Source of the DNA: Haladaptatus sp. R4
Lineage (GTDB): Archaea > Halobacteriota > Halobacteria > Halobacteriales > Haladaptataceae
Assembly: GCF_001625445.1 (NCBI RefSeq)
Contig: NZ_LWHG01000029.1
Span: 124,001-188,000, forward strand
Length of the DNA stretch: 64,000 nt
Reading direction: 5' to 3'
The notes beneath the pieces are model-generated. The model searched no databases, was not told the DNA's origin, and saw only the letters and a list, made by a program, of their open reading frames with translations. The position numbers and the translations under genes are program-made. Below, piece after piece: positions 3,080-24,057 of the stretch. How positions within the stretch are numbered: position 1 is the stretch's first letter; each line of letters opens with the position of its first letter.

Positions 3080-4351
3080 TTACTCGGACGCCTCTATTTG
3101 AGCCGCCTCATCGACCCACTTACGCACGGTTGCTTCCGAAACATCGGTTTCTTCTGCAAGGCGATTTACATCGGCGTTAGCGAGCTTCGTCAGGCTGTCG
3201 ATACCGGCATGCTGCAATCGTTCAGTATATGCCGAACCGATCCCGGGAACGTCCTCGAGATCAGTCCGAGTTACTGACCGCTCCGCATACCACTCACTGA
3301 CTTCGGGCCACAGTTTTGTATGCGAGCTAGATGAAACGGACAGGCCGATATGTCCTGTTGGGAATTCGATGATAGAGGTATCCTCACTCGCGATTACAGT
3401 ATTGAACGGCTTGCTGGCTTCTGGAGGGATCAGATGATCATACTCCCCGACGATCTGAAGAACAGGCATATCGATATTGTCCAAATCGATATGCTCATCT
3501 CCCAGATACAGTTCGTTCTTCGCCAATTTGTCATCCTGATAGATGTCTTCTATGAATTGACGATACGTTTCCCCAGCGACATCGATCCCATCGCCGATCC
3601 ACTTTTCCATTCGGGCGAAATTCTCGACCATCTCGTCGTTTTCGATGTTATCGAACAAACGAACGTACTTCGTAACGAAGTTATCGACGGGATCCATGAG
3701 CGCAAATCCGACATCGAGGAAGTCCGAAGGGACGTTCCCAACCGTCTCCGTGATTGCCTCTGGAGAATAATACTCTTCGTCCCCCCACTGTTCGAGAACA
3801 CCTCCTTCTCCATCGAAGCACAGTCCAGCAGCCATCAGTCCAAGATTTCTAACTTTCTCCGGATGTAACGACGCATACATCGCGCTCATCGTCCCACCCA
3901 TACAGTAGCCGAGAATATTGATCGCATCCTCACCGGAGCGTTCGCGGACGACATCGACGCAATTGTCGATGTATCGGTCCACATAGTCGTGAAGTGTGAG
4001 GTGTGCATCGAGCTTCGACGGCTCGCCCCAATCGATCAGATACACATCGAATCCTTCGTCGAGCAGCGTTTTGACCACGCTGCGATCCGGTTGTAGGTCT
4101 AGAATGTACGGCCTATTGATCAACGCATAAACGATGAGGATCGGAACGTCGTGTTGCTCGTCCGTCGTTGGTTCATAGTGATTGAGGGTGAGTTTGTTCT
4201 CGGAGTACACCTCCTCGCACGGGGTCTGACCGACCTCGACATCCATCATCCGTTCGGTCTGCTCCGGGAGAGCAGCGCCACGTTCCATGATCTCGGCTGC
4301 TTGTTCCCACTGCTGACGCTGCATGTCGGCGATGAGCGTAAAGGGGTTCAT
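3080..4351 (-). CDS. phaC: Class III PHA synthase catalytic subunit PhaC with C-terminal HhH domain
   Basis: 423 residues. It polymerises (R)-3-hydroxyacyl-CoA into PHA at the granule surface with PhaE. The alpha/beta-hydrolase core has the lipase-like box GYCMGG with catalytic Cys150, Asp305 in GEYDHLIPP and His334 in TGHIG. Residues 362-419 ([16 protein letters not shown] then [10 protein letters not shown]) form an extra helix-hairpin-helix-like tail absent from bacterial class III enzymes. The N-terminus begins NPF...MQRQQWEQ, resembling PhaP. The start ATG overlaps the phaE stop by 4 bases, so the two are translationally coupled. Confidence 0.95.
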
Positions 4352-4884
4352 TCACTCTCAATCTCTTCGAGGATTTGATCCAGTTTCTGTTCGATTTCGT
4401 GTTGGCGGCGTTCTACTTCGAGTAAGCGCTCACCGACTTCTTGAATATCGCTTTCGGTCGGAAGGCCAAAGGTACCGAGCGTCTGTTCAGTGGCTTCGTC
4501 GACGGTCTGCTTGTATGCCATCGAGTTCTCGACGGATTCGCCAGTCATCGACGAAAATGCCGAGGTAGTCGTTACTTCCTTGAATGCATCGTTGGCCGCC
4601 TTCAGCCAGATATCACGGAACTCATCGATGGGGACCTCTTCGCCCTCAAGTGCATCATTTATTCGCTCGAATTGTTTTTGAGCGGCATTCATCCACGCTT
4701 CATACGCACCAACGTACCCTTCCATTCCGTCTTTTGTTATTTCGTCCGATTCATGGCTCTCGAATGCGTTCATCCAAGAGTCGACGAAGGCGGTTTGTGC
4801 TTCGACGTTCCGTTCGAGTGACTCGAGGAACGCCTCGTTCATCTCTCCCATATACTCGTTCCAATTCTCGGATGAATTTGTCAT
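4348..4884 (-). CDS. phaE: Class III PHA synthase subunit PhaE
   Basis: 178-residue, mostly helical acidic protein immediately before phaC. Haloarchaeal PhaE is short compared with bacterial PhaE and is required for PhaC activity. Features include an N-terminal phasin-like helix with [23 protein letters not shown], a central [11 protein letters not shown] segment typical of PhaE, and a C-terminal heptad-rich coil ([20 protein letters not shown]). No catalytic residues are expected. The ATGA overlap with phaC and the 44-base gap after phaP support a single transcript. Confidence 0.92.
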
Positions 4885-4928
4885 GGATGATTATTATGAC
4901 GTAGGGTGGCAAAAATGTTGTTGCGGGG

Positions 4929-5396
4929 CTACTCAATCTCAACGTCAGTCGCATCGACGACGGTCTCGGACTGCTCTTCGAACTGTTCGCTTGTCTTCAT
5001 CGCCATCTCGACGGAATCGGTAACGAACGAAAGAAGTGTTTCGTTCACGTCTTCCGAGACTTCCGCACCGGTCTCGATATTGCGCTCAACCGACTCCCAG
5101 ACATCGGTGTGGATGTCGCTCAACGCATCGAACTGATCATCGATCGTTTCTTGCATATCGGTGAATGCCGTCGAGTCCGTTGGTGCCGTCGCATCGGCGA
5201 CGTTGAGGGACGTCTCGGTGGCCGATTTCCAGGCATCAACACCTTTCTCTTGAGCCGATTTTTGACTCTCAACCGCCTTGACAAAGGATTTGTTCATCTC
5301 ATTCTGGACTTCGATAGATTGTTCGATCATCTTCTGACCTTGTTCTATCGACTGACGCTGCAGTTCGAACATCGGGGCAAATGGGTTGTTATTCAT
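4929..5396 (-). CDS. phaP: Haloarchaeal phasin PhaP
   Basis: 155 residues, almost wholly amphipathic helix, acidic, with no Cys. Phasins coat PHA granules and control their number and size. Position between phaR and phaE matches the phaRPEC order known from Haloferax mediterranei. The N-terminus NPFAPMFELQRQSIEQ is similar to the PhaC N-terminus, suggesting a shared granule- or partner-contact motif. The start ATG lies 8 bases inside the phaR 3' end. Identification rests on composition, length and gene order. Confidence 0.88.
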   Translation of the reverse strand: MNNNPFAPMFELQRQSIEQGQKMIEQSIEVQNEMNKSFVKAVESQKSAQEKGVDAWKSATETSLNVADATAPTDSTAFTDMQETIDDQFDALSDIHTDVWESVERNIETGAEVSEDVNETLLSFVTDSVEMAMKTSEQFEEQSETVVDATDVEIE

Positions 5397-5709
5397 GGGT
5401 TTCCTCCGACTGATTTTTCATGGGGATGACGATCGTCTGGACGATGTCCCCTTCAGCGATATCGAGCGCTTCTCGCTCGGCATCCGGGATACTGATTCGC
5501 CCGCCGCTCTGGACGCGAGTTTTGAAAATCGCGGTTTCACTCCCGAGCGATCTGATCTTCGAGAGCTCATCATCCCTCGCGCCAGCGTTTCCAGATACCA
5601 TCTGCTTCCACATCTCTACCTGCTGCTCTGCTACGTCCTCACTCGCCTGTTGCATTTGGTTTGCAAACAGTGCGGGTGGCCACATGGTTCGGTCGTCCTG
5701 ATTCGCCAT
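5389..5709 (-). CDS. phaR: PHA operon regulator PhaR, AbrB/SpoVT-type
   Basis: 106 residues from ATG 5709 (MANQDD). A longer frame to 5808 has an unlikely N-terminus. Residues 1-40 are a Gln/Met-rich helix (WPPALFANQMQQASEDV) that may contact granules. Residues 55-95 are a swapped-hairpin AbrB domain (TRVQSGGRISIPDAEREAL, then EGDIVQTIVIP). In Haloferax mediterranei, PhaR represses phaRP and binds granules, so feedback control is expected here. It is the first gene of the leftward phaRPEC operon, with an 8-base overlap with phaP. Confidence 0.88.
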   Translation of the reverse strand: MANQDDRTMWPPALFANQMQQASEDVAEQQVEMWKQMVSGNAGARDDELSKIRSLGSETAIFKTRVQSGGRISIPDAEREALDIAEGDIVQTIVIPMKNQSEETHE

Positions 5710-5918
5710 CTTCGACCGGCAGTACGAGGTCCTACTGTAAAAATCTACCCCTGAAAGACATTTAGTGGTGAGGAGAACCATTGAGTGGTTTTCAGTGGGC
5801 TTCCACATCGATATTCATGTTCTAATTTCTCTACCCTATCGAACAGTCGAGTTGAAAATGCCGAAATTACTATTAATATGCTCCACCACGTACTCTTTAG
5901 TTCGGATAATAGCTTATC

Positions 5919-20448: not shown

Positions 20449-22548
20449 TTAGAGAAACGATTCGAGGCTGCGTTCGTCGTGACCCGAGAGGAATCGTTCG
20501 ATGTGTTTTTCGCGCCATCCCAACGGTGACAGTACACTCTCCGCCCCCCGTATTAGCGACACCCGATAGAACTCGGAGTCATACTCGGTCGGCTTCTCGA
20601 CCGCCAACGCCACTCGCTCGCGCGATTTCTTCGCATCGTCCACCACCACGTAGGACACGCTCTGACCCGGCGACCGCGCCAACCCCAACTCGGCCGCTCG
20701 CTCCAGTGCCGCCACGCTCCGCGTCGATTGCGTGTACTCCTCCCGATTTTTCGAAACCCGGTTCGTGATCACCAACTCGCTCGGGTCGACCGCGCCACGC
20801 TCAAGTCGGTCTATCCACGACCGTAACTCCTCACAAACCGCCTCCGGATCACGATGCTCGTCCACCGCTCGGATCAACGCTTTCTGCGCCTCATCGATGT
20901 ACGACGGCGTACTTCGCTGGCGACACTCGATCCCGCGGTACTTGTACTCGTCTTCGCCAGCGACCTTCCCGAAGTACTTCGTCAACGCACCGGCATCCGA
21001 ATCGCGCAACGGAACGAACGCGATCCAGTCGTAGTGGGCTTCGTGTTCGAGCCGAATCTCCACCTGCGCTGAAATCCGAGTCGCAAGCTCGGACAGCGGC
21101 GTCCGTTCTTCGCCTTCGATCGGTGTCACCCACACGCTATCGACGATGCCGTGCACGATCCGCCACCCGTTCGCTTCGAGCACCGCTTTCGTCTCCAACA
21201 GGATTTCCCTGGCAAACGCGTTGATCGCCTCGTGACACTCGATGCGCCCGAACTTCGCGTTCGAAAAGCCCTGATAGCCGAAACACGACACCAAGATCCA
21301 CTTGATCGCGCTCGATTGGCCCGCCAACTCGTCGCGACGATCATCGTTCTCGGTCCCGCAAATCTCGGCTTTGATCCCCTCTCGATCCTCGATGAGCGGT
21401 TCGAGCACGTCCGGAAGATAGCCCCGCTCGTCACAGATCGAGTAGCCGATTCCCGGCACGTCCTCTCGCCCGGCGTGACACTCACAGCGAATCTTCTCCG
21501 GGCTCACGTTCCGCGTGACGATGATGTTCGGATACAACGAGGAGAAGTCGAGTTCGTGGACGTTCTCGTGCAGGCCGACGTCCGGCGCGAAGGTGAATCC
21601 ACCTCGGTCGGCATCGCGCAGTTGACGCATCGTTTTGAACCGCTCGTGACGCCACGAGTGCCACGGCACGAGCACGTCCCGTTCGCGGCCTTCCCGGATC
21701 TGAATCCCGGTCAAAACGTTCCCGATCGACGACCACGCCAGTTCCTGCAGTGGTTTCCCCGACCGCTTCACGAGATACAGACAGCCATCGAGGTTCGTCT
21801 GATTCCACATGAACGTGTTCGAACCGTCGATGATCGCCCGACCGGGCAGGTTGTAGCGTGCCGGTGAGTGGCCGACTCGTCCGTAGCTCTCGTACGTCGA
21901 TTCACCCGCCAACTGCTGCCACCCCGGCCGTCGTCCGAGCTGAAATGCCACGTCGAGCCGCTCGGCCTGCCCAAAGAGGACGGGAACGAGGTCGCTGGTA
22001 TTCAGGAAGAGAACGTCCGGATCGGCCCGTTCGACGCGGGCCGACAGCGTGGCTAGCACGTCCGCACCGCTTCCGGTTACCGTCTCGTCGTCGATCGTGA
22101 GTTCCGTGACGGTCCCGCTCGCGAGTTCCGTCTCCGCGATGGCGATTCGCATCCGCGAGAGTTCGTGCTCCGGAAGCGGGTCGATTCCCGCTTCGAGACA
22201 GTAGCGAAACTCCCGCGAGAAGTCGACGTTGTAACATCGGTACTCGCCGGGCGACCCCCACTTGCTCACCGTTCGGGCCACCGAGTCGACTGCCGTGAGG
22301 TCGGTCACATCGACCCGAAGTACCCGCTCGGGATCGTGACGAAAGCTCACGCGTCGATCGACGACGGCGACCCCCGCGACGGCAGGGAGGTCACGGAGCG
22401 CAGCACGTGCCGTGGAAAACTCACCGTCGCCGTGCACCGACACGTAAATCGTCGGCGTGTACGATTCGTCCACTTCGCAGTTCACACCCGTCTCGGTTAC
22501 CGACCAGGTGAGCACGTCGCCGTCGACGTAGTCGATTTTGTACACCAT
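20449..22548 (-). CDS. polB2: B-family DNA polymerase of the PolB2 type, degenerate active site
   Basis: 699 residues, shorter than replicative PolB. Motif A is intact (DFSSLYPNII, Asp334). Motif B is altered (KWILVSCFGYQG, residues 416-425, Val where the KxxxNSxYG pattern has Asn). Motif C, normally YGDTDS, reads HGIVDS (466-471), so the first catalytic Asp is Ile. The N-terminal exonuclease region keeps no recognisable DxE motif. This fits the archaeal PolB2 family described as inactivated, some members of which are linked to DNA-damage tolerance. It is the last gene of a three-gene operon, 4 bases after the small coiled-coil gene. Confidence 0.85.
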   Translation of the reverse strand: MVYKIDYVDGDVLTWSVTETGVNCEVDESYTPTIYVSVHGDGEFSTARAALRDLPAVAGVAVVDRRVSFRHDPERVLRVDVTDLTAVDSVARTVSKWGSPGEYRCYNVDFSREFRYCLEAGIDPLPEHELSRMRIAIAETELASGTVTELTIDDETVTGSGADVLATLSARVERADPDVLFLNTSDLVPVLFGQAERLDVAFQLGRRPGWQQLAGESTYESYGRVGHSPARYNLPGRAIIDGSNTFMWNQTNLDGCLYLVKRSGKPLQELAWSSIGNVLTGIQIREGRERDVLVPWHSWRHERFKTMRQLRDADRGGFTFAPDVGLHENVHELDFSSLYPNIIVTRNVSPEKIRCECHAGREDVPGIGYSICDERGYLPDVLEPLIEDREGIKAEICGTENDDRRDELAGQSSAIKWILVSCFGYQGFSNAKFGRIECHEAINAFAREILLETKAVLEANGWRIVHGIVDSVWVTPIEGEERTPLSELATRISAQVEIRLEHEAHYDWIAFVPLRDSDAGALTKYFGKVAGEDEYKYRGIECRQRSTPSYIDEAQKALIRAVDEHRDPEAVCEELRSWIDRLERGAVDPSELVITNRVSKNREEYTQSTRSVAALERAAELGLARSPGQSVSYVVVDDAKKSRERVALAVEKPTEYDSEFYRVSLIRGAESVLSPLGWREKHIERFLSGHDERSLESFL

Positions 22549-22552
22549 GGCC

Positions 22553-22825
22553 TCATCCCCGATCGTTCAAAGCGTCCTCGACGTGAGCGAGTCGGTCCTC
22601 CAGATCGTCGAGTCGCTTCTGTTGTTCGATCAGCATCGAGACGAGCGCCGGAATCTCGACGAGTTGATGATTCAAAAATCCACTTGCGTCGGCATGGGCA
22701 CGGGAATACTCGAACAGGCGATCGAAGACGCCCTGGTCGGCGCGTCGGAGTGCCCGTCGGTAGTCACCCCATCGGGACTCCGTCGCCCGGAGCAACTCAC
22801 GATACGTCGAGTTAGTGCGCCCCAT
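22553..22825 (-). CDS. Small coiled-coil protein of the PolB2 operon
   Basis: 90 residues from ATG 22825. A longer frame to 23050 would run antisense-like through the upstream gene. The N-terminal half is basic and helical (TYRELLRATESRWGDYRRALRR). The C-terminal half ends in heptads (MLIEQQKRLDDLEDRLAHVEDAL), a likely dimerisation coil. It overlaps the upstream RecA-like gene by 14 bases and ends 4 bases before polB2, so all three are co-translated. It is probably an adaptor, and no enzymatic motif is seen. Confidence 0.78.
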   Translation of the reverse strand: MGRTNSTYRELLRATESRWGDYRRALRRADQGVFDRLFEYSRAHADASGFLNHQLVEIPALVSMLIEQQKRLDDLEDRLAHVEDALNDRG

Positions 22826-23486
22826 TCGCACGCACCTCCGGTGGAACGTCGGCATCGACCATCGCCGGATGCCGATCCGCCAGGACGCGTTTCCAATACG
22901 CGAGCGTCGTCTGCACCATTCCATTCTCCAGGGGGTAGACCAACGTCTCGTACTCATCGCCCGTGAACCGTGGTCCGAACCGCGTTCGCTCACACCGGAC
23001 CGTCCGATCCGCAATCTCGCGAATCGGTGCCGAGAGCGCATCGTCCGCATGCAAGGTCACGAGTATCGGATTCTCGAACGTCTCGGCGAGCGCTTCGATC
23101 CGTTCGGCCGCGGCCGAGAGCATGCGTTCGTCCGCTCCTCGGGGGAGGTCCTCCGACCGATAGAACCAGTCGACGGCGGGGAGGACGGCGATCGACGTTT
23201 CGTCCGTGAGTTCGCCAGCGAGGTCCCGCACGAGACTCAGGTGTTGCCACGGGGTGAACGCCCGAGCGATGTGAATCCGGTCGAGGACACGCATCGACGG
23301 GGTGACTTGGGTGAGCGAGCGCGTCGTTCCGTGACCACGAGCGTCGACCCAAACGGCCGACCCCTGATCGAGGAGCAGTCGGTCGAGCACGAGCGAGTGG
23401 AGTGGACCGGTCGTGCGCTCGTTCGTAGTGAGCAGTGTGACTCCGGCGTCGAGCGACGGGAGTTCCGGCGGCGTATCGGACATCAT
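22812..23486 (-). CDS. RecA/RadA-like protein lacking Walker A, first gene of PolB2 operon
   Basis: 224 residues from ATG 23486 (GTG 23489 and ATG 23483 are alternatives). The layout is a RecA-fold core: a strand-loop near residues 17-32 (VTLLTTNERTTGPLHSL) sits where the P-loop should be but has no GK[ST], and a hydrophobic strand ending in Asp (SIAVLPAVDW, about residue 106) resembles Walker B. ILVTLHADD looks like a later core strand. I infer an ATPase-dead RadA paralogue, comparable in position to ImuA/SulA-like proteins of mutasome operons. The family call is inferred from fold pattern and context. Confidence 0.62.
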   Translation of the reverse strand: MMSDTPPELPSLDAGVTLLTTNERTTGPLHSLVLDRLLLDQGSAVWVDARGHGTTRSLTQVTPSMRVLDRIHIARAFTPWQHLSLVRDLAGELTDETSIAVLPAVDWFYRSEDLPRGADERMLSAAAERIEALAETFENPILVTLHADDALSAPIREIADRTVRCERTRFGPRFTGDEYETLVYPLENGMVQTTLAYWKRVLADRHPAMVDADVPPEVRANGAH

Positions 23487-24057
23487 CACGACTGCTACGT
23501 CGACCGACTATCGGATAGGCAAGCCAGGGTCGGTTCCGAATGTTCCGATACCGGAAGACCGACGCCACCGAGTCCCCGTGATCGTCGCACCGAACATCGG
23601 ACCGTGACAGGAATACCTCCGCAACGAGTGGTGGTGTAGACGAAGGAACCCGATGAGGAGGACGGTCTGTGAGAACGAGACGTCACGGAATATCCGGCGG
23701 GTGAAAATCCGCCAGTTCGCTCGTGGAAATCGAGGACGGCGGGATGATGTCGGGTGGTTCGACCGATGGGGTTGAAACGAACGCCCCACCGCTCACCGAA
23801 CCGGTTTCACGGCACAATAGATGGGGACCCACTGTCGAGGATACCACGGTCGGACACGAACCCGAATCGTCATCTCCCCCTCGAAGGAGCGGGACCGCGG
23901 CTTCGAGATTCGGGACGATTCCGCGGTTTCCGATTCCGACTTCCGAAAGATCGGTCGTCGGTTTGTCCGAAATCGAACAGACGGAAGCGCACAGTATTTG
24001 TGCAACGCAGCCGTTATCATCCGATTGATACCCGTGGCAGAGGATCAACACCAACCG
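23487..24057. other. Intergenic region between divergent units
   Basis: About 570 bases. Frames on both strands (23723-24028 plus, 23683-24453 minus) are Ser/Pro/Arg-rich, overlap real genes or each other, and are not convincing. It should contain the promoter of the polB2 operon, but I could not identify a TATA box with confidence. Confidence 0.4.

Follow-up and report, generated by a model that had tools for sequence, protein, structure and literature searches.

The minus strand of a 64,000-nucleotide stretch of the Haladaptatus sp. R4 genome (here called the window) encodes, between positions 20449 and 23486, a RadA-like protein (iRadA), a 90-aa helical protein (PPB2) and a B-family DNA polymerase (PolB2), in that gene order. 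The trio is very probably a haloarchaeal PolB2 mutasome operon, and probably one that is induced by DNA damage. The same set of genes was earlier recognized as a predicted operon, arCOG07300 with an inactivated RadA and PolB2 (Makarova et al., 2014; PMC4104785), and the PolB2-iRadA-PPB2(3) mutasome has been modelled (Timinskas et al., 2025; PMC11791011). The mutasome-type assignment of the original prediction was thus right, and it was already published for the iRadA-PPB2-PolB2 trio. The window locus is itself ordinary, a new copy of this known operon, since its seemingly broken residues are the normal hallmark of the PolB2 family; related genomes have subunit variants, described below, for which no earlier report was found. 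The features of the locus are these:

22812..23486, minus strand: iRadA, 224 aa, a catalytically dead RadA/Rad51 paralogue without Walker A
22553..22825, minus strand: PPB2 (arCOG07300-type), 90 aa, MGRTNSTYRELL..., predicted helical/coiled-coil
20449..22548, minus strand: PolB2, 699 aa, B-family DNA polymerase, exonuclease active site gone
22814-22825, minus strand: MGRT N-terminal arm of PPB2, from alignment, R3 and R9 conserved
21604..21609, minus strand: D314-R315, the D(K/R) motif of PolB2, invariant in a 31-member alignment
21520..21555, minus strand: motif A of PolB2, ELDFSSLYPNI, catalytic D334 invariant in the same alignment
21136..21153, minus strand: motif C of PolB2, HGIVDS (H466, D470, S471; context VHGIVDS), the PolB2 signature HxxxD replacing YxDTD
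20452..20475, minus strand: C-terminal ERSLESFL of PolB2, a PIP-box-like candidate clamp-binding motif, L695 invariant
23515..23550, minus strand: conserved promoter block TATCGGAACATTCGGAACCGACCCTGGCTTGCCTAT (= block TATYGGAAYATTYGGAARCGACCCTGGCTTGCCTA), about 60 nt upstream of the iRadA start
23534-23547, minus strand: direct repeat YGGAANNWYYGGAA within the promoter block

The genes are tightly packed, iRadA and PPB2 overlapping by 14 nt (22812-22825) and PPB2 and polB2 being separated by 4 nt (22549-22552), exactly as first read; a GTG at 23489 is an alternative start for iRadA. On one flank lie a nuclease with a lamin-tail domain, TetR, P450 and SDR genes, and on the opposite flank genes for a PhoD-like phosphatase, a UPF0259-like protein and a ZIP transporter, none of which obviously belongs to the trio unit. 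The three genes are neighbours on the same strand, and their linkage, on which the mutasome analogy had been made to depend, is kept across haloarchaeal genera. In a survey of haloarchaeal PolB2 loci, a GRT-type PPB2 and iRadA co-occur wherever both are visible in the stretch. Among the named loci centred on PolB2, PPB2 is adjacent in 36, lies upstream behind an insert in 25 and is not seen in the stretch in 18, these last mostly having short upstream DNA or an insertion. Elsewhere in the window, PhaC/PhaE-like ORFs (3080-5808) resemble, by eye, a polyhydroxyalkanoate synthase cluster.

The kinship of the first protein to RecA/RadA, originally proposed from the sequence, is borne out by both profile and fold. 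All 40 matches obtained by hmmsearch of the PDB with a 35-member iRadA profile are RadA, Rad51 or RadB proteins (best E 2e-4), and Pfam Rad51 is matched by 21 of the 35 profile members (best 6.6e-8), the window protein alone scoring under the curated cut-off. Its AF2 model (pLDDT 77) gives a Foldseek E of 3.8e-10 and a VIA Z of about 18 against the Dmc1/Rad51/RadA cores. The reported absence of GK[ST] was confirmed for the window protein and extends to every distinct homologue (0/70), and iRadA does not carry the Walker A sequence GxxxxGK[ST] that marks an active RadA recombinase. It has a Rad51/RadA fold without the N-terminal domain and the ATPase residues, as does the corresponding mutasome subunit. 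A group of short iRadAs shares a conserved C-terminal tail, -EV(S/T)xxG(A/S)(Y/H). The small protein in the middle of the operon is likewise present as described, and its N-terminus, MGRTNSTYR, contains the MGRT arm together with R3 and R9; the arm is diagnostic, and it has been published for PPB2 with Arg 3 and 9 (PMC11791011).

NCBIfam NF004418 covers the whole of the window polymerase at 1068 bits, a match which, with the conservation of the unit across genera, shows that the find is not due to chance. Pfam DNA_pol_B matches as well (1.4e-24), and the haloarchaeal PolB2 profile matches archaeal PolB structures at E 2.5e-60; an AF2 model (pLDDT 54) was too poor for use. The altered motif C, the intact motif A and the missing exonuclease motifs were all seen as the original prediction described them. 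Motif C is HGIVDS, rarely HGIIDS, in 89/89 distinct haloarchaeal PolB2s, the first Asp of DxD being replaced and the second (D470) retained. In addition to D334 and D314-R315, K416 (the motif B Lys), H466, I468 and D470 are invariant in the 31 aligned haloarchaeal PolB2s, and the Exo I sequence DIET of Pyrococcus abyssi PolB aligns with a degenerate stretch. Contact between the D(K/R) motif and the PPB2 arm has been reported (PMC11791011). A clamp-binding motif at the C-terminus of PolB2 or iRadA is reported in a fraction of PolB2 mutasome members; most haloarchaeal PolB2 C-termini show an Lxx[FY] pattern, the consensus being weak.

These substitutions had been taken to mean that the polymerase, like iRadA, has lost catalysis. 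That inference is unsupported on present evidence: HGIVDS and the lost exonuclease are family traits and therefore no evidence for a dead enzyme, the substitutions being the PolB2 signature held in common with active Sulfolobus Dpo2, and the remaining catalytic residues are invariant. Dpo2 of Sulfolobus islandicus resembles the window PolB2 in its HxxxD motif C, its polymerase motifs A and B and its lack of functional exonuclease motifs; its polymerisation is on a par with that of the replicase, and it extends mismatched and lesion-bearing ends (PMC8764526). Dpo2 is a crenarchaeal protein of measured activity, whereas the haloarchaeal PolB2s are often plasmid-borne; no assay of a haloarchaeal PolB2 was found in the literature. 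According to a review, Haloferax polB2 lies near a radA-like gene, its product is predicted to be inactive and the gene is deletable, which counts against an active PolB2. By its motifs and by comparison with Dpo2, the window PolB2 is predicted to be a damage-tolerance polymerase, with the dead RadA as its structural subunit.

Upstream of the trio, the conserved block with its GGAA repeat is probably the promoter that drives all three genes, and the same block stands directly upstream of PPB2 in operons that have no iRadA (type-B operons). Of the 69 regions upstream of iRadA, 24 contain the pattern GGAA-n4/5-YGGAA, against 0.3% in shuffles, the loci including Haladaptatus, Halorussus-type, Halomicrococcus, Halogranum and Halegenticoccus; a second large group of iRadA loci has a different, apparently coding, upstream region. 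Similar YGGAA repeats, with G-runs after them, are found at two orc1/cdc6-type genes of Haladaptatus sp. R4. Haloarchaeal ORBs end in a G-string, and the resemblance of the promoter repeat to them is weak; the damage regulator of Sulfolobus is an Orc1 paralogue with an element of its own, ANTTTC. That an Orc1/Cdc6-type regulator might read the GGAA repeat is put forward as a hypothesis only. A genome-wide GGAA regulon was considered and dropped: the 14-nt pattern has 39 matches in its own genome, against 4 for the reversed pattern, and since most of these are intragenic the excess is probably due to codon composition.

Alternative accounts of the operon differ in what they make of these observations. 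If the RadA-like protein and the polymerase were both dead, the complex would be purely structural, acting at damaged DNA or stalled forks. The missing P-loop of iRadA, the absence from PolB2 of the first Asp of DxD and of the exonuclease residues, and the older description of PolB2 as inactivated (PMC4104785) all agree with such a complex, but Dpo2, whose motif C is likewise HxxxD, matches the replicase in activity (PMC8764526), and in a dead scaffold there would be no need for the second Asp, which binds metal, or for the Asp of motif A and the Lys of motif B to be invariant. The conserved motifs and the biochemistry of Dpo2 thus disfavour a complex without catalysis, and we regard it as unlikely. 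Of the two would-be enzymes for which a scaffolding role was once suggested, iRadA alone could plausibly serve purely as a scaffold.

A second account would give the complex a part in plasmid replication initiation or copy control in place of damage tolerance. PolB2-query matches are found in 159 plasmid records, orc genes lie close to polB2 in many archaea (PMC4104785) and close to the Haladaptatus type-B operons, and the promoter repeat weakly resembles orc-adjacent repeats; however, the tested orc family has no match in the 64-kb window, Sulfolobus genetics indicate damage-induced mutagenesis (PMC8764526) and the distribution of PolB2 is patchy, so that a role in plasmid maintenance seems quite improbable. 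Selfish or degenerating plasmid cargo with no present host function might be suspected from the numerous truncated polB2 pieces in Haladaptatus genomes. The window copy, however, is intact, pairwise dN/dS among intact Haladaptatus PolB2 copies is 0.08-0.11, indicating purifying selection, and the trio order and promoter are kept across genera, making loss of function a very remote explanation.

As a PolB2 mutasome operon, the window trio shows no essential difference from the published system (PMC11791011, PMC4104785), having the same three families in the order iRadA-PPB2-PolB2, the MGRT arm, the dead P-loop, IxD in place of DxD and the D(K/R) motif; Haladaptatus relatives add iRadA-less copies and other haloarchaea an exonuclease gene. 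How the complex would assemble and work can be drawn from Dpo2 and the published AlphaFold models. The conserved GGAA repeat would mark the promoter from which the operon is transcribed, and an Orc1/Cdc6-type regulator might, speculatively, act on it, much as in Sulfolobus. One PolB2 would then associate with one iRadA and a PPB2 trimer, the P-loop-less iRadA docking on a Rad51-oligomerisation-like loop of PolB2 and one PPB2 MGRT arm entering the PolB2-iRadA cleft close to DNA; the C-terminus of PolB2 may be where the clamp binds. Insertion opposite the lesion would probably occur earlier and be performed by another polymerase (the Haladaptatus sp. R4 genome has one Y-family polymerase gene), after which the polymerase-competent, exonuclease-dead PolB2 would extend the mispaired or lesion-containing primer ends. 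The outcome would be damage tolerance, paid for with mutations. In Sulfolobus, damage induction has been reported, and genetics point to damage-induced mutagenesis (PMC8764526).

The parallel originally drawn was with ImuA-ImuB-DnaE2, but the closer system is the PolB2 mutasome itself, whose published architectural analogue is Pol V. Both Pol V (UmuC-UmuD'2-RecA) and ImuA-ImuB-DnaE2 combine, like the PolB2 mutasome, a damage polymerase with a RecA-family protein. Their polymerases belong to the Y and C families, unlike the B-family PolB2, which makes the relation one of analogy, and the RecA of Pol V is an active ATPase, unlike iRadA. Membership in the ImuA/ImuB/DnaE2 system was rejected because the polymerase families are wrong, the window polymerase being B-family and the operon having no Y-family partner.

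The truncated polB2 pieces of Haladaptatus form arrays, with up to at least about 20 polB2 matches in a genome. On plasmid 4 of H. halobius all pieces lie on one strand inside one 172-kb arc, operon 5' ends first and C-terminal pieces after them, and are separated by transport and catabolic genes. Haladaptatus megaplasmids have one zone of co-oriented truncated polB2 and coiled-coil gene pieces and another of SWIM-SprT-like gene-pair pieces, both with transport/catabolic cargo between (array loci: L142, L143 and L144-L168 on NZ_CP085340.1; L043 and L044 on contig C33 of genome G000; L179-L223). Other plasmid backbone genes (the SWIM-SprX pair, the coiled-coil gene) form similar arrays, and a module in which an MFS gene is joined to polB2 residue 474 occurs in three species with differing downstream DNA; for the window P450 gene, used as a control, no comparable fragment arrays were found. 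The recurrence of this module and the like arrays of other backbone genes fit a history in which plasmid backbones repeatedly underwent homologous recombination around cargo, and not one specific to PolB2. The pieces were also considered as an att site, being co-oriented with the 5'-most copy first. This was rejected, since other backbone genes array likewise, breakpoints are scattered and the 3' tails are of several classes. More likely, polB2 lies in an accretion zone as a bystander; some polB2 pieces share a 125-bp tail that is also found without polB2. On the chromosome of Haladaptatus pallidirubidus (contig C1 of genome G006), matches recur with a fixed spacing of 551,849 bp (iRadA at 1678352/2230201; P450-like at 1868082/2419931 and 1486472/2038321), which suggests either that half a megabase is duplicated or that the assembly contains an artefact.

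Outside the window, seven Haladaptatus genomes contain PPB2-PolB2 operons without iRadA (loci L045-L053, L063-L066 and L132). In these operons eight residues are deleted from the N-arm of PPB2 and MGRT is absent, while PolB2 retains D(K/R), shows no fixed difference in the surrounding region and is under purifying selection. All seven genomes encode iRadA elsewhere, so that it could act in trans on these operons. A 215-aa gene in the same orientation, EXO, lies directly 3' of PPB2 in Halorubrum, Halobellus, Halorientalis and further genera, and in several loci its start codon ATG overlaps the stop codon of PPB2 (examples are L117:4406-5050, L274, L322 and related ones from Halorubrum and other haloarchaea). 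EXO belongs to Pfam RNase_H_2, with a weak match to DNA_pol_B_exo1, and all five DEDDh residues are invariant in 56/56 sequences; it is predicted to be a DEDDh 3'-5' exonuclease with an intact active site. A phmmer search of the PDB with EXO gave no match, and none was found in the Haladaptatus sp. R4 genome. EXO homologues occur in 80 of the 292 genomes of the class sample. In the closer group (61% identity or more), PPB2 and iRadA lie immediately upstream in 29 of 30 fetched loci. A same-strand polB2 follows within up to about 7 kb in 14 of 18 iRadA-PPB2-EXO loci (two of the 14 decayed), and in one genome iRadA-PPB2-EXO-PolB2 are contiguous with an 18-nt gap. It is this gene order that suggests that EXO may act with PolB2. 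In a more distant group of EXO homologues (L289-L307), one neighbour is a conserved ~320-aa gene (FELE..YLGHPYFVSGNALFNALARRVD) and the other a ~355-aa gene coding for an HNH-like Cys motif (HRCQxCG); together they may form a defence-type cluster. The main text of Timinskas et al. (2025; PMC11791011) makes no mention of EXO, and neither the iRadA-less nor the EXO-linked operon variant was found reported in the literature. We tentatively propose, with more doubt than confidence, that these are subunit variants of the PolB2 mutasome, with EXO, translationally coupled to PPB2, supplying in trans the proofreading or end-trimming that PolB2 has lost, and with an iRadA-less second operon in Haladaptatus; the GGAA promoter common to the two Haladaptatus operon types would perhaps be read by a damage regulator of the Orc1/Cdc6 type.

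The window corrects a misreading, in that the residues that seemed lost are the signature of a polymerase family whose activity has been shown in Sulfolobus. Haloarchaea provide mesophilic, genetically tractable hosts for the predicted PolB2-iRadA-PPB2 complex, and their operons, some of which include iRadA or a separate exonuclease while others do not, amount to natural experiments. Should EXO prove to be part of the complex, a translesion polymerase without a working exonuclease of its own would be under the control of a proofreader acting in trans.
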